A stretch of DNA of 55,698 nucleotides from Nesterenkonia sp. PF2B19 (lineage in GTDB: Bacteria > Actinomycetota > Actinomycetes > Actinomycetales > Micrococcaceae), in NCBI RefSeq assembly GCF_001758425.2, contig NZ_MDSS02000018.1, positions 1 through 55,698 of the forward strand. The letters are read 5' to 3'. Under the pieces are notes generated by a model. That model saw only the letters and a program-made list of their open reading frames with translations. It was not told the origin of the DNA and made no database searches. Each line of letters begins with the position of its first letter. Position 1 is the first letter of the stretch. Position numbers and translations under genes: made by a program. Below, one piece after another: positions 37,969-43,914 of this stretch.

Positions 37969-38970
37969 TCATGCGGCATTGAGGCCCGCGATGAGCACCA
38001 GCACGCTGAACGCCAGGAAGGGCAGGAACAGCAGCACGTGCAGGAACATATGACCCTTCATCACCGCGATGAACTCGCGCAGGAACGCGCTGGGCACGTA
38101 GTAGCGGGCCGTCTTCGCGCCGGTGACCTCCGCGCGCATGCCCGCCTTCCGAGACAGCAGCGCCGCCCGCAGCACGTGGTAGTTGTTGGTGACCGCCAGC
38201 AGCGGACCGGAGCGACCGGCGTCGTCCTGGATCTGCTGGGAGAACCGCAGGTTCTGTGCGGTGTTCACCGCCCGGTTCTCCGGGATCACATCCTCTGCCG
38301 CCGCGCCCTGGCCCAGCAGATACTCGGCCATGGCCTCGCCCTCGGGGCGGGACTCGTCCGGCCCCTGCCCGCCGGAGGGGATGAGCAGCGGCTTCTGCTC
38401 GGACTGCCGGTAGATCTCCAGGGCACGGTCCAGGCGCGCCTTCAGCAGCGGCGGCACCCCACCGTCGATGAGCCGCGACCCCAGCACCACGACGGCGGCC
38501 GGGTGCTCCTGGTGCGTCATCCGCCCGTAGGCCGCCGCGTAGCTCAGGAAGATCACGAAGGCGGCGCCCGCGTAGCCGGTGGCCAGGAACAGCAGGACCG
38601 CCAACGTGATCAGGTACGGGTCCCCGGTGACGACGAGGACGACGGCGATCACCGGCAGTGCTGGGATGGCCAGCCCCGCCAGCAGGGAGAGCATGTTCCC
38701 CAGCCGGCGGCCCTCACGGCGCAGCATGGTGACCCCGTTGGCGATGAGGAAGCCGCTGAGCACCAGCACGCTGGCCGGCAGCAGCAGCACGATCAGCAGG
38801 GTGACGAACCCGAAGCCGGGGACCACCTGGGTGAGGATCTCCACCACGCCCAGCAGGGCGCAGCCGACCGCGGCCACGAGCGCGACACCGTTGCGGAGCA
38901 TGCGCCGGTCCCTCCGGCGGAAGTGCAGGTACACAGCTCCGAAGAGTACGGCGAGGATCAGCATGAACAC
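37969..38970 (-). CDS. YdcF/SanA-like membrane protein (DUF218)
   Basis: A 333-residue protein with about five N-terminal membrane helices (e.g. LLLPASVLVLSGFLIANGVT, LAVLLFLATGYAGAAFVIFL), then a DUF218 domain: AAVVVLGSRLIDGGVPPLLK, LLIPSGGQGPDESRPEGEAM, VIPENRAVNTAQNLRFSQQI and LLAVTNNYHVLRAALLSRKA. DUF218 proteins such as SanA and YdcF are linked to envelope barrier function; activity is unproven. Starts at GTG 38,970 or ATG 38,964. A C-terminal membrane helix (MFLHVLLFLPFLAFSVLVLI) closes it. Confidence 0.83.
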   Translation of the reverse strand: MFMLILAVLFGAVYLHFRRRDRRMLRNGVALVAAVGCALLGVVEILTQVVPGFGFVTLLIVLLLPASVLVLSGFLIANGVTMLRREGRRLGNMLSLLAGLAIPALPVIAVVLVVTGDPYLITLAVLLFLATGYAGAAFVIFLSYAAAYGRMTHQEHPAAVVVLGSRLIDGGVPPLLKARLDRALEIYRQSEQKPLLIPSGGQGPDESRPEGEAMAEYLLGQGAAAEDVIPENRAVNTAQNLRFSQQIQDDAGRSGPLLAVTNNYHVLRAALLSRKAGMRAEVTGAKTARYYVPSAFLREFIAVMKGHMFLHVLLFLPFLAFSVLVLIAGLNAA

Positions 38971-39030
38971 GGGGCCAGCCTAGCGGGGCGGGCGGGGGTG
39001 GTGAGGCGGGCCGCCGTCGTCGCACCGTCC

Positions 39031-39100
39031 GTTCTGCACACCAGAATCACGTCTGCACAGCCAGATCTGGCGGGGCAGACGTGATATCGGGGTGCAGAAC
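39031..39100. repeat. Copy A of a 70-bp palindromic repeat flanking the DUF559 gene
   Basis: Begins GTTCTGCACACC and ends CGGGGTGCAGAAC. Arms ATCACGTCTGC and GCAGACGTGAT pair around the inner palindrome CCAGATCTGG. It starts 14 bases downstream of the DUF559 stop codon and matches copy B (40,340-40,409) in the same orientation. Confidence 0.85.
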
Positions 39101-39114
39101 GCGCCAATCACCGA

Positions 39115-40274
39115 TCACCGGGCGCGAGGCACTCCAGCCTGCAGCAGCTTCCGACGGAGTCGCTCGGGCCGCAGAATGTCCTCCCAGATGATCCGGGCGA
39201 CGCCGAGGCCCAGCGCCCGGAGGCCGTCCTCACGGTGCTTCTCCGCCTCGAGGGCCTCCACCGGGCTCACCCCACTGAGCTCCTGGGACCTCCGGTACTT
39301 GACCATCCCGTCAAACTCGGCGACGACACCCTCCCAGGCGAAGTCCACACGCACACGCCGCCCGTCGGGCAGAACGACCTCACGCTGCAGCTCCGGGGCG
39401 TGGAAGCCCAGTTCCCGGATCAGGCTCGTACCGCGGACTCCCCCGGGGACTCGGCGGCAGGGTCGGCGAACTCCACGGCCCGAGCCCACCGTGCCCGTCG
39501 GCGGTGCGTGCGCAGATACGGCTCCCACTCGACGAAGTCGTCCAGCACGAGGGTCCGCTCGGAGGTGATCCGACCCGCCAGCACGGCGTCCAGAATCACC
39601 GCCGCCTCAGCCAGCGAGGACTCCGCCACGGTGTCCAGAACAGCGAAGGCAAGCGGTTCGACGTCGGCACTTTCCGGGCCGCCCTGCAGCCACGGATGCA
39701 CACCCAGTCCCAGGGGCTCGCGCGGCACCGCGTGCTCCCCGCGCCGGACTCTGACCTGCAGATCCTCACGACCGATGCCTTCGGGCAAGGCGGCCCCGAG
39801 GCGCCGGAGGGGGATCGGCTGCAGGTCACGGCCACTGAGCGGTCTGCCCCGCGCGCCGGCCAGCTCCTGGTGATCCGCCAGCAGGCGAGCGACGACGGCG
39901 GCATCGGCCGTCCCGGTGAGCGGGCCAGCCCGCCTCCGCCCCACGCGTCCACGCCGGGTCTCCCGGACAGTGATCTCTCCCGGAGTGCGCAGCAGAGGGA
40001 CACCCCAGAGGGCGAGCGCCGAGCCGCGACAGAAGAGTGGCGAGGCTGCCGCCGCCATGGCGCCGAGAGCCATGAGATGTCGGTCCCACGACGGGGCGCT
40101 GAGCCAGTGCCCGGGCTCGATGTAGACGCCATGGGCAAGGCGCAGCATCTCGCCACGACGCACCGCCGACGACCATCTGTTGCTCCGATGGGCCCGGTCC
40201 TCACGGGGCACATCTGCGACGCAGAGCAGGCGCACAGGATCGCGTGACGCGGACGTGACAGTGTGCGTGAGCAT
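39115..40274 (-). pseudogene. AbiEi-like N-terminus plus DUF559 nuclease-fold protein, one-base frameshift
   Basis: About 386 residues when repaired. The N-terminal part resembles AbiEi-type antitoxin winged helices: SAVRRGEMLRLAHGVYIEPG, FCRGSALALWGVPLLRTPGE. The C-terminal DUF559 domain has a Vsr-like nuclease core: VDFAWEGVVAEFDGMVKYRR, EKHREDGLRALGLGVARI. The frame breaks at ~39,440-39,446 in CCCCCGGGG; one added G on the coding strand joins EFADPAAESPG to GVRGTSLIRELGF. ATG 40,274 is the chosen start. The gene is bracketed by two 70-bp palindromic repeats, so it may be part of a repeat-linked element; function is inferred. Confidence 0.75.
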
Positions 40275-40339
40275 GCCTTCCACTGTGGCCGATTCAGAGA
40301 GTCAGTGGGGCCGTGTGGGTGCGCCCTGTGGAGAACGCC

Positions 40340-40409
40340 GTTCTGCACACCGACATCATGTCTGCACAGCGAGATCTCGTGGGGCAGACGTGATACCGGG
40401 GTGCAGAAC
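40340..40409. repeat. Copy B of a 70-bp palindromic repeat flanking the DUF559 gene
   Basis: Same length and orientation as copy A (39,031-39,100) and identical at both ends (GTTCTGCACACC, CGGGGTGCAGAAC). The inner palindrome is CGAGATCTCG instead of CCAGATCTGG, so two paired bases changed together. It lies 66 bases upstream of the DUF559 start. Confidence 0.85.
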
Positions 40410-40441
40410 CGACGGGGCAGAACGGGTCCACCGCGTCGCCC

Positions 40442-41149
40442 TCACTTCAGCGTGAACCGGTGCGGCTCCGAGGTGATCCCGCCCAGGCTCACCGTCAGCT
40501 CGTAGGCCCCGGGCTCGAGCTCCACGGGCTCGGTGCAGCTCGCGGACGAATCCGAACGGGGCCAGCTCAGCTGCGCCCGTTCCTGCTGGCCCGGTTCCAT
40601 CGTGAGCTCATAGGAGTCCGCCTCGCCGCCGCACTCCGTGGTGGTGAAGACTTCGCGTCCGGCATGGGAGACCGTGAACTCCTGCTCGGCGGTGCCGACG
40701 TCGAGGGTGCAGTCCTCGTCCCCGACGTTCTGCACGGTGAGGATCAGCAGCGGCGCCACGGCGGCCGAGTACTCGGCGTCGTCAGTGTCGGCGGTCACCC
40801 GAATGTCGCCCGGAGCGCAGTGGCCCTCCGGGACGTCGTCGGTGTCCGGGTCGGACCCTGCGTCTGAGTCCTCCTCCGAGTCCGCATCTGAGTCCTCCTC
40901 GGAGGCGGCACCCTCATCAGAGCCCTCGTCCGAGTCCGACTCCGAGCCGGATCCGCCCTCAGTGTCGTCCTCCTGCTGCGCCGTGGGGTCGTGCGGGTCC
41001 TCATCCACCAGCAGCGCGAAGATCGCCGAGCCCGCCCACCACAGGCCCACCAGGACCACCAGGAGCAGCGCCCCGACCACGAGCCGGCGTCGCCGATACA
41101 CCGCGGCGGACTGGCGCCTGGGCATGCGGCGCGGACCTGGGGAAGCCAT
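40442..41149 (-). CDS. Membrane-anchored protein with acidic linker
   Basis: A 235-residue protein: basic N-terminus (RRMPRRQSAAVYRRRR), one membrane helix (~23-47, LVVGALLLVVLVGLWWAG), an Asp/Glu/Ser linker (~48-110) and an extracellular beta-rich domain (~110-235) with four to five Cys (e.g. HCAPGD, EDCTLD, TTTECGG, SSASCTEP). The final VELEPGAYELTVSLGG segment suggests an Ig-like or DUF4232-type fold. Function unknown. ATG 41,149 is chosen because the basic/TM pattern starts there; ribosome site weak. Confidence 0.75.
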   Translation of the reverse strand: MASPGPRRMPRRQSAAVYRRRRLVVGALLLVVLVGLWWAGSAIFALLVDEDPHDPTAQQEDDTEGGSGSESDSDEGSDEGAASEEDSDADSEEDSDAGSDPDTDDVPEGHCAPGDIRVTADTDDAEYSAAVAPLLILTVQNVGDEDCTLDVGTAEQEFTVSHAGREVFTTTECGGEADSYELTMEPGQQERAQLSWPRSDSSASCTEPVELEPGAYELTVSLGGITSEPHRFTLK

Positions 41150-41241
41150 GCGCACCAGGGTATCTCCGCGTCCTGGACGCATCCCGCCCACGCCACTCGG
41201 AGACGGGTGTGATGTTCACCGGCCGCCCCGTCGCGCGGCTG

Positions 41242-41703
41242 TCAGGCCGTCAGCCGTCCGACGAGCTCCTGCACACGGCGGCGGATGTCGTCGCGGACCA
41301 GCTCCATGCGTTCGCGGCCCTCGATGCCGCGCAGGCTGGGCTCGTCGGTCTCCCACCGCTCCACCAGCACGCCGTCGGGCTGCGGCACCTGAGCCTCGGC
41401 GCCGAGGACCACCACATGCCCGGCACGGCGCATCATGTCCTCGGTGAGCAGGGTGGGAGTCTCGCCGGTGATGTCCACGCCGAGATCCTGCAGGACCTCG
41501 GCCGAGAGGGCGTTGACCGCCGCCCCCGGTGCGGTGCCGGCGGAGGCCACGCTCACCGACGACGGCACCCCGGCCGCTTCCAGCTCGCGGCGCATCAGTC
41601 CCGCGGCCATCTGAGACTTGCCGCCGTTCTTCACGCAGACGAACAGCACGCCGTCGGAGGGCCGGTCGGCACGCTGGACGGCGGGATCGGGTGTGATGCT
41701 CAT
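41242..41703 (-). CDS. arsC: Arsenate reductase-like low-molecular-weight phosphatase family protein
   Basis: A 153-residue protein with phosphate-loop VLFVCVKNGGKSQMAAGLMR, where the usual CX5R Arg is Lys (C-V-K-N-G-G-K). Further motifs: SAGTAPGAAVNALSAEVLQD, GVDITGETPTLLTEDMMRRA. This variant loop is found, as I recall, in mycothiol-dependent arsenate reductases of actinobacteria; the Lys makes the assignment tentative. Its ATG overlaps the arsR stop (ATGA), so it is coupled to arsR in one operon. The Acr3-ArsC operon is divergent. Confidence 0.8.
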   Translation of the reverse strand: MSITPDPAVQRADRPSDGVLFVCVKNGGKSQMAAGLMRRELEAAGVPSSVSVASAGTAPGAAVNALSAEVLQDLGVDITGETPTLLTEDMMRRAGHVVVLGAEAQVPQPDGVLVERWETDEPSLRGIEGRERMELVRDDIRRRVQELVGRLTA

Positions 41704-42098
41704 GCGGGCTCCAGGGGAGAGTTCGGGTGCGGTGGGACGATCCCATGGCCGACAGCGTGGGCGATGCTCTCCAGCGCCCCGTCGACGACGGCGTAGTAGG
41801 ACCAGACACCGCGCTTCTCCCGCGTGAGGAGGCCGGCGTCGACCAGGATCTTCAGGTGGTGTGAGACCGTGGGCTGCCCCAGGTCCAGCGGGCCGGTGAG
41901 GTCGCAGACGCAGGCTTCTCCGCGGGCGTCGGCGGCGACGAGCGCGAGCAAGGTCAGGCGGTTGGGGTCGGCGAGGGCCTTGAGCCGGGCGGCGAGCTCG
42001 ACGGCCGCCTCGGCGTCGAGTGCGGGCGTGCCAGGCTGGGGAGTGCAGCAGCTCGAGGTCTCGCCGTCGGCCTGGTCCGACGTGAGGGAGAGAGTCAT
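41700..42098 (-). CDS. arsR: ArsR/SmtB family metalloregulator
   Basis: A 132-residue repressor. Helix-turn-helix LGQPTVSHHLKILVDAGLLT; metal-sensing CVCDL in EACVCDLTGPLD, plus a Cys pair near the N-terminus (SSCCTPQPG) that may add ligands. ArsR proteins release DNA when As(III) binds. GGAGG lies five bases before ATG 42,098. Divergent from acr3, it sits where it can control both promoters, and its stop overlaps the arsC-like start. Confidence 0.9.
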   Translation of the reverse strand: MTLSLTSDQADGETSSCCTPQPGTPALDAEAAVELAARLKALADPNRLTLLALVAADARGEACVCDLTGPLDLGQPTVSHHLKILVDAGLLTREKRGVWSYYAVVDGALESIAHAVGHGIVPPHPNSPLEPA

Positions 42099-42185
42099 GG
42101 GTCCTCCGACTGGTGAGGGGCCACGGGTGGTCAGTCCGCGACGCCTGGTGACATCGACGCGCAGAGACACCCCCGAGCACCGACA

Positions 42186-42240
42186 TTGACATTCTTCGAT
42201 GCCCCTGACGATACTCGGACCATCGATGGTTGTCGATGCC
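42186..42240 (+). promoter_or_regulatory. acr3 promoter with probable ArsR operator
   Basis: TTGACA (42,186-42,191), 18-base spacer, GATACT (42,210-42,215), followed by CATCGATGGTTGTCGATG (42,221-42,238), an imperfect inverted repeat across the expected start site. A repressor there would block transcription of acr3-arsC. Confidence 0.5.
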
Positions 42241-42322
42241 GTCGTCTCACCCTCTGCGGTGCCCCCTCCACGGAAGCGCCGCAGACCCTGAAACCCTCCT
42301 CCACCCAGACCTCAGGAGCACC

Positions 42323-43498
42323 GTGTCGCAGAGCACCACCTCGGCCACCGCCTCATCAGCACCGCCGGACGCCTCCGGCGTCGTCGCGAAGCTGTCACTG
42401 CTGGACCGATTCCTGCCGGTGTGGATCATCGCCGCCATGGCGGTCGGTCTCGGCCTGGGCGCCGCAGCACCAGGCTTCGGTGAGGCGCTGGAATCGTTCA
42501 AGATCGCCGGGGTGTCCCTGCCCATCGCCCTGGGACTGCTGATCATGATGTACCCGGTGCTCGCGAAGGTCCGCTACGACGAGACCGCCACCGTGATCGG
42601 CGACCGGAAGCTGATCATCACCTCGCTGCTGATCAACTGGCTGCTCGCTCCGGCGTTCATGTTCGCCCTCGCCTGGCTCTTCCTGCCGGACCTGCCGGAG
42701 TACCGGACCGGGCTGATCATCGTGGGGCTGGCCCGCTGCATCGCCATGGTGCTGATCTGGAACGACCTCGCCTGCGGGGACCGTGAGGCCGCCGCCGTGC
42801 TGGTCGCCATCAACTCGGTGTTCCAGGTGATCATGTTCGGAGTGCTCGGCTGGTTCTATCTGCAGCTGCTGCCCAGCTGGCTGGGACTGCCCACCACCAG
42901 CGCCGAGTTCTCGGTGGTGGCGATCACCGTCTCCGTGCTGGTGTTCCTGGGGATCCCTCTGGTGGCCGGATTCCTGACCCGCACCCTCGGCGAGCGCGCC
43001 CGCGGACGCGACTGGTACGAGGAGACGGTCCTGCCGCGCATCGGCCCCTGGGCCCTGTACGGTCTGCTGTTCACCATCGTGGTGCTCTTCGCCCTGCAGG
43101 GCGACCAGGTGCTGAGCAGTCCACTGGACGTCGCCCGGATCGCGCTGCCACTGACCATCTACTTCCTGGTGACCTTCGGCGCCTCCATGCTGATCGGCTG
43201 GCTTCTGCGCCTGGGCTACGAGCGCTCCACCACGCTGTCCTTCACCGCGGCGGGGAACAACTTCGAACTGGCCATCGCGGTGTCCATCGCCACCTTCGGT
43301 GCCACCAGCGGTCAGGCGCTGGCCGGGATCGTCGGCCCGCTCATCGAGGTGCCCATCCTCGTGGCGCTGGTCTATGTGGCCCTGTGGGCGCGCCGCTGGT
43401 TCGCGACGTCGACGCCGGCCGCCGTCGGGGCCTCACCTGAGACGCCGCGCCCCTCCCCTGCTGACACCCCTGCTGAGACTCCTGAGAGGACCCGCTGA
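42323..43498 (+). CDS. acr3: ACR3 family arsenite efflux transporter
   Basis: A 391-residue polytopic membrane protein with about ten helices (e.g. FLPVWIIAAMAVGLGLGAA, VSLPIALGLLIMMYPVLAKV, KLIITSLLINWLLAPAFMFA). The conserved functional Cys is in GLARCIAMVLIWNDLACGDR, and GNNFELAIAVSIATFGATSG is typical for ACR3. It exports arsenite driven by the proton gradient. Start at GTG 42,323, with AGGAG five bases upstream. Its stop overlaps the next arsC start (TGATG). Confidence 0.94.
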   Translation: MSQSTTSATASSAPPDASGVVAKLSLLDRFLPVWIIAAMAVGLGLGAAAPGFGEALESFKIAGVSLPIALGLLIMMYPVLAKVRYDETATVIGDRKLIITSLLINWLLAPAFMFALAWLFLPDLPEYRTGLIIVGLARCIAMVLIWNDLACGDREAAAVLVAINSVFQVIMFGVLGWFYLQLLPSWLGLPTTSAEFSVVAITVSVLVFLGIPLVAGFLTRTLGERARGRDWYEETVLPRIGPWALYGLLFTIVVLFALQGDQVLSSPLDVARIALPLTIYFLVTFGASMLIGWLLRLGYERSTTLSFTAAGNNFELAIAVSIATFGATSGQALAGIVGPLIEVPILVALVYVALWARRWFATSTPAAVGASPETPRPSPADTPAETPERTR

Positions 43499-43914
43499 TG
43501 ACCCGCGAGAACCACAAGCCCACCGTCCTGTTCGTCTGCGTGCACAACGCCGGCCGCTCCCAGATGGCCGCGGGTTTCCTGCGGGAGATCGCCGGCGACG
43601 ACGTCGTCGTGCACTCTGGCGGCACCCAGCCGGCCGACCAGGTGAACCCGGTGGCCGTGGAGGCGATGGCCGAGGTCGGCATCGACATCTCCACCCGCGT
43701 GCCGGACCAGCTCTCCCCGTACACCGTCCAGGAGTCGGACGTGGTGGTCACCATGGGCTGCGGGGACGACTGCCCGTTCTACCCGGGCAAGCGCTACGAG
43801 GACTGGCAGCTGGACGACCCGGCCGGCCAGGGCATCGAGGCCGTGCGGCTGATCCGCGATGACATCCGGGCCCGCGTGGAGGAGCTGGTAGCCTCGCTGC
43901 GCACCCCGGCCTGA
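43498..43914 (+). CDS. arsC: Arsenate reductase (thioredoxin/mycothiol-type, LMW phosphatase fold)
   Basis: A 138-residue reductase with the complete phosphate loop FVCVHNAGRSQMAAGFL (CX5R), HSGGTQPADQVNPVAVEAMA, and DVVVTMGCGDDCPFYPGKRY, which carries further Cys residues for the disulfide cascade. It reduces arsenate to arsenite for export by Acr3. Its ATG overlaps the acr3 TGA, so the two are translationally coupled. Distinct from the Lys-loop ArsC in the divergent operon. Confidence 0.92.
   Translation: MTRENHKPTVLFVCVHNAGRSQMAAGFLREIAGDDVVVHSGGTQPADQVNPVAVEAMAEVGIDISTRVPDQLSPYTVQESDVVVTMGCGDDCPFYPGKRYEDWQLDDPAGQGIEAVRLIRDDIRARVEELVASLRTPA

Follow-up and report, generated by a model that had tools for sequence, protein, structure and literature searches.

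Several described systems come close to the locus considered here, each in different respects. The REPIN-RAYT pairs (TnpA-REP, or 'REPtron') consist of a gene for an HUH tyrosine transposase flanked by its own palindrome, with one repeat sequence per protein lineage, a gene that seems not to multiply, and hundreds of palindrome copies dispersed between genes, for which a placement near 3' ends has been reported (PMC3733652). The EDxHD homing endonuclease I-Bth0305I apparently dimerises on a very long target, just short of 60 bp, according to PMC3943268. Type IV antitoxins of the AbiEi and Rv2827c kind carry an N-terminal winged helix and are described as binding paired 23-bp inverted repeats near their own promoter, through which they autoregulate (PMC7319586).

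The window, by which we mean the whole 55,698-nucleotide stretch of Nesterenkonia sp. PF2B19 DNA that was analysed, is contig C44 of a 3.70-Mb genome in 134 contigs. Judging from sequence comparison, it probably contains a gene for a protein with a winged helix and a nuclease of Vsr/EDxHD fold, bordered by two copies of a palindrome that its product would recognise. The two palindromes (39029-39101 and 40338-40410, neither assigned a strand) are imperfect, about 72 bp long and start 1309 bp apart; they are 89% identical in direct register and 81% in inverted register, and the bracketing of the gene pointed out by the initial annotation is real. In the first copy, the half-site TTCTGCAC (39032-39039) is followed at a distance of 19 bp by GTCTGCAC (39051-39058), and both are then mirrored (39073-39080 and 39092-39099). 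The second copy has the same register, with half-sites at 40341-40348, 40360-40367, 40382-40389 and 40401-40408; all these half-site positions were read by eye. The unit lies between a DUF218 gene (37969-38970, minus strand) and a DUF4232 gene (40442-41191, minus strand), which also mark the empty orthologous site in the related genome G021. An equivalent palindrome pair with the same neighbours surrounds an intact orthologue of 389 aa in G029. Further along the window, an arsenic-type cluster (41242-43914) comprises an ArsR-like ORF, a low-molecular-weight phosphatase ORF (LMWPc, named from a domain match) and an ACR3-like transporter, the transporter and the ArsR-like ORF being named from reading the ORFs.

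The nuclease gene of the window is broken. Its N-terminal part (287 aa; 39420-40283, minus strand) encodes, by homology to relatives, an AbiEi-like winged helix and a middle domain, while its C-terminal part, a 137-aa ORF in another frame (39115-39528, minus strand), carries the motif RVDFAWEGVVAEFDGMVKY and a putative Vsr/EDxHD-type nuclease domain, whose fold is assigned via relatives. The frameshift, located between 39420 and 39528, may be a sequencing error in the draft assembly; the reading frame is open in the G029 orthologue. An alignment of 49 relatives reveals a C-terminal part in which D, W, E, F, D, K and Y residues hardly vary, and from which the nuclease motif pattern D..E-x-D-G-x-x-K was read. 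The AlphaFold model of one relative, L077 (pLDDT 90.2, pTM 0.89), was used for a fold search against the PDB, in which nothing reached an E-value of 0.001. Within that limit, the nuclease part resembles the catalytic domain of I-Bth0305I (3r3p; probability 1.00, E 5.6e-3, target TM-score 0.72), which is thus among its nearest solved folds although weak by E-value, and less closely Vsr (1cw0; probability 0.69, E 0.68). AbiEi (6y8q) and Rv2827c (1zel) were retrieved with probabilities of 0.94 and 0.91, respectively; ranks 1 and 3 of the search were occupied by Toxoplasma gondii mitoribosome proteins with TM-scores of at most 0.22.

Profile searches gave a similar picture for the N-terminal region, with the best PADLOC AbiEi model matching 27 of the 49 family members at E<=1e-5 and Pfam AbiEi_4 (PF13338) matching 21 of them at E 0.01. 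Both the AbiEi-like winged helix and the Vsr-type nuclease fold proposed by the initial annotation thus hold up as predictions, and according to the model the protein has an AbiEi-like winged helix ahead of its Vsr/EDxHD-like nuclease domain. The DUF559 label given to the gene fared otherwise: the motif and the predicted fold are like those of DUF559 and Vsr proteins, but PF04480 matches just one of 49 members (E 0.0045), and neither gene piece of the window matches any Pfam family at E 0.1. The flanks of the lone PF04480 gene in the PF2B19 genome gave no informative gene call. NCBIfam searches of the family returned nothing informative, and sequence searches of the PDB returned just two unrelated matches (E 0.1 and 0.25). 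The called neighbours, in the window as in G029, include no recognisable AbiEii nucleotidyltransferase toxin gene. An origin from a phage or plasmid was considered and rejected: there was no DNA match and no confirmed relative in viral contigs, and by protein (tblastn) the family was found on 2 of 72,556 plasmids and in none of 50,697 phages. The nuclease gene itself seems not to multiply within genomes, the best within-genome identity being 52% (81 pairs among 73 fetched genes).

The association of this gene family with palindromes extends well beyond the window, to actinobacterial relatives of Nesterenkonia and Arthrobacter. A scan of contigs representing one genome per species identified at least 79 named actinobacterial loci, mostly in Micrococcales, among the best 80 matches; after dropping four genes that lacked 300 bp of flank, and with one locus holding two genes, 76 genes were available. 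Counting a local score of at least 36 between the left and right flanks as a match, the flanks matched at 39 of these 76 nuclease genes versus 4 of 841 other called genes from those loci (Fisher 1e-42, among the matches listed), which leaves 37 of the 76 listed nuclease genes without a flank match at the threshold used. A long palindrome was present within 300 bp of 49 nuclease genes against 88 of the others, and on both sides of 8 against none, again among the matches listed. Within the genus, where some Nesterenkonia genes are common to both sets, the flanks match at 43 of 74 loci (41 of 72 once two duplicate entries are removed). Ten further genus matches, several of them fragmentary and none belonging to the three clades used below for co-occurrence, have matching flanks in three cases. 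Two of the four flank-matching control genes lie at L097 18465-19391 and L107 5091-7193. The partnership may be wider than Micrococcales, because Gordonia soli (L128), outside that order, has a long palindrome 65 bp past its relative of the gene (10366 onward).

The palindromes themselves differ from lineage to lineage. Those of 73 flank-matched genes fall into 56 clusters, 48 of which have a single member. A palindrome is common to 30 of 52 gene pairs with at least 60% protein identity, compared with 3 of 2576 pairs below that value, and protein identity correlates with palindrome sharing (Mantel r 0.62, with 0 of 2000 permutations as high). On the sequences compared, there is an own version of the palindrome for each protein lineage.

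Dispersed copies follow the distribution of the cognate genes. Three families were counted in 30 genomes of the genus, namely the window type, T60 (the type of locus L060) and T47 (the type of L047), and they amount to 2-14 copies per genome, mainly where the cognate gene is present. Counting copies in the genome and its relatives, as the initial annotation had proposed, gave nine of the window type in PF2B19, four in G029 and none in the 28 other genus genomes. T60 palindromes occur in 8 of the 30 genomes, with the fewest places in G008 (2) and the most in G018 (14), and T47 palindromes in six, one of which has a single 28-bp match. With kinship left uncorrected in all three comparisons, T60 palindromes are found in 6/6 genomes with a gene of the cognate clade versus 2/24 without (Fisher 5e-5), T47 palindromes in 5/6 versus 1/24, the latter being the weak 28-bp match (Fisher 2e-4), and window-type palindromes in 2/2 versus 0/28 (Fisher 2e-3). 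The exceptions are G003 and G008, which have T60 palindromes without a T60 gene, one G003 copy looking like a remnant, and G019, which has a T47-clade gene and no T47 match. A fourth family, the L109 type, occupies 15 places in Galactobacter caseinivorans (79-100% alike to the query) and has no match in the genome of G. valiniphilus. The repeat-nuclease partnership suggested by the initial annotation is well supported, and strongly so because flank matching, co-occurrence and lineage-specific palindromes all point to it.

T60 copies are often paired at 0.4-1.3 kb (in G018, G022, G023, G024, G019 and G011), and several of these pairs bracket one ordinary gene. On contig C94 of genome G000 (L014, 4062-4132 and 4861-4928), two window-type palindromes lie about 800 bp apart with no clear gene between them; besides the palindrome, they have about 110 bp of flank in common (182 bp at 87%), as if the copy took neighbouring DNA along.

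What is conserved in the palindromes are blocks rather than base pairs. Among 32 T47 copies, GCGTTTTACC, CG.G and TACC are almost invariant, as are their mirrored counterparts, and most bases between them vary and are unpaired; variable pairs match at 0.457, compared with 0.466 after shuffling. The corresponding values are 0.414 versus 0.476 for 14 copies of the L109 type, and 0.672 versus 0.654 for 13 copies of the window type, in which 36 of 500 shuffles were as high and an indel shifts two copies partly out of register. The covarying hairpin described in the initial annotation survives as far as its starting observation, since the cores of the two window copies are indeed distinguished by a paired change; as a general property it was rejected, with pair compensation absent or near the shuffled level in three palindrome families. 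A search of the palindromes for known RNA families gave sub-threshold matches only. Between species, orthologous T47 sites are 98.1% identical in the blocks and 73.0% in the spacers (19 pairs), with alignable flanks at 88.7%, in a comparison that covers the T47 family and whose blocks had in part been defined from these very copies. When the blocks were defined from the G008 copies alone, the values over six other pairs were 92.3% and 76.9%.

A second regularity is the repetition of half-sites. At a threshold of at least 7 of 8 bases, the half-site recurs at a lag of 19 bp in 30 of 73 genes; by cluster, the repeat is present in 23 of 56, the other 33 having none at that threshold. Other lags are rarer by gene (18 bp in 8 genes, 22 in 5, 20 in 3, and the rest of the 15-24 range in 0-2, n=73), seven other lags are found in 0-1 of 56 clusters, and after shuffling the 19-bp lag is seen in about 1 of 76, in a set that counts three genes twice. 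We read the conserved blocks as the footprint of protein recognition of double-stranded DNA through four contacts; double-stranded DNA, not a hairpin, would be the form bound, because the symmetric blocks are conserved and the half-sites are repeated at 19 bp. The four-contact reading fits what the sources cited above report, in view of the nearly 60-bp target of I-Bth0305I and the paired repeats bound by AbiEi-type proteins. We consider it likely that the protein recognises the palindrome.

Regarding movement, the copy on contig C92 is missing at the orthologous G029 site, the whole unit is missing between DUF4232 and DUF218 in G021, where a 60-bp gap is found, and G022 lacks the palindrome at one T60 site that is occupied in four relatives. 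Such single empty sites are compatible with gain and loss alike; those inspected showed no target duplication. The palindrome is kept in 258 of 267 orthologous-site comparisons, a figure biased by the fetching of mainly palindrome-bearing regions, so movement is rare, and the persistence of copies over long times suggests that they serve the host. The nuclease may plausibly be what mobilises them.

The placement of the copies bears on several explanations at once. Based on rough, script-made gene calls for 60 copies from five genome/family sets, 25 lie between convergent, 23 between tandem and 9 between divergent genes, with 2 inside a called gene and 1 at an edge, against 38 convergent, 102 tandem and 28 divergent among 168 neighbouring gene pairs taken as a baseline. 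Accordingly, 48 of the 57 placed copies have a 3' end on one side or both, and 40 of these 48 are within 35 bp of it. Such positions, many of them between convergent genes, are what ordinary transcription terminators that are alike by chance would occupy. This explanation is nonetheless very improbable, given that three families have no base-pair compensation, that nine placed copies are divergent, that the left-right flank matching is specific to the nuclease gene family, and that a pattern scan of 38900-40600 found two terminator-like sites, both inside the gene and none at the palindromes. The initial annotation had set its proposal against palindromes equally frequent, as ordinary terminators, after unrelated genes; half of that picture is seen, as most of the 60 copies do lie beside unrelated genes, yet palindromes and nuclease family are linked all the same. 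The same preference for 3' ends is shared with REPs, and the palindromes might be REP elements that a RAYT moves, the nuclease gene being only a bystander. We find this hardly credible: the RAYT domain PF01797 is missing in 29 of the 30 genus genomes, including PF2B19 and all those with the three counted palindrome families, its sole match being in G009, and no GTAG tag was noticed by eye in the palindromes. Because PF01797 is missing and hairpin compensation fails, the locus is not a member of the REPIN-RAYT systems. The likeness drawn by the initial annotation persists in layout and copy behaviour, but not for the reason it gave, which was covariation.

A decaying transposon or a MITE of some other transposase, carrying the nuclease as cargo, would account for the absence of the whole unit at the orthologous G021 site and for the duplicated flank of the C94 copies. 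It is nevertheless quite improbable, since dozens of unrelated palindromes share the layout around one protein family, which is moreover nearly absent from plasmids and phages. A further explanation, which we consider unlikely but not to a comparable degree, is that the protein is a regulator with many operators: an AbiEi-like protein that autoregulates and also binds dispersed sites, shaping transcription ends or nucleoid structure, with its nuclease serving elsewhere (in defence, for instance) while the palindromes spread by other means. The autoregulation reported for AbiEi and Rv2827c, the preservation of T47 blocks at orthologous sites and the many copies adjoining 3' ends agree with it. 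Against it stand the many loci with palindromes flanking the gene on both sides, the nearly invariant residues of the nuclease motif, and the recent spread suggested by the contrast between the two Galactobacter genomes.

The explanation that we favour, a nuclease that recognises and disperses its own palindrome, can be laid out as follows. Protein units would bind four half-sites on double-stranded DNA, arranged as two direct pairs, each spaced 19 bp, in inverted orientation; the nuclease would nick or cut at the bound palindrome; and repair or recombination would copy the palindrome, and on rare occasions the gene, into intergenic DNA elsewhere, mostly immediately after a stop codon; the copies would then be retained there. 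Overall, the system would behave like a REPIN-RAYT pair made of unrelated parts. The sequences themselves show the gene-palindrome link, the lineage-specific palindromes, the dispersed copies, the conserved symmetric blocks and the presence or absence at orthologous sites; binding, cutting and copying are what we infer. Whether these loci form an undescribed actinobacterial class, selfish or domesticated, seems to us evenly balanced; its members would join a homing-type (EDxHD/Vsr) nuclease to an AbiEi-like winged helix, recognise a four-half-site double-stranded palindrome with 19-bp spacing, spread the palindrome and not themselves, and display dozens of specificities on one scaffold.

Compared with the described systems, the locus thus shares with REPIN-RAYT pairs a gene flanked by its own palindrome, the intergenic dispersal near 3' ends, a repeat of its own for each protein lineage and a gene that seems not to multiply. 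It differs in having a PD-(D/E)XK/EDxHD-like nuclease, palindromes that measure about 60-75 bp, repeat the half-site at 19 bp in 23 of 56 clusters and conserve blocks without base-pair compensation, and, in the families counted, 2-15 copies per genome. From I-Bth0305I, with which the predicted nuclease fold is shared, it is distinguished by the AbiEi-like winged helix and by a palindromic target present in many copies, and from the AbiEi and Rv2827c antitoxins, whose N-terminal winged helix it shares, by the C-terminal nuclease domain. A literature search found no report of such a nuclease-palindrome pairing, and among the papers on DUF559, judged by title or the start of the abstract, none was about such palindromes.

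If the favoured explanation is true, REP-type repeats with a dedicated enzyme would have two or more origins, based on enzymes unrelated to each other. The pairs of gene and palindrome found in nature, which even in this small sample span 56 palindrome clusters, would constitute a ready table of protein sequence against DNA specificity for a nuclease family, and the gene family would provide a labelled handle on the long-lived intergenic palindromes of actinobacteria.
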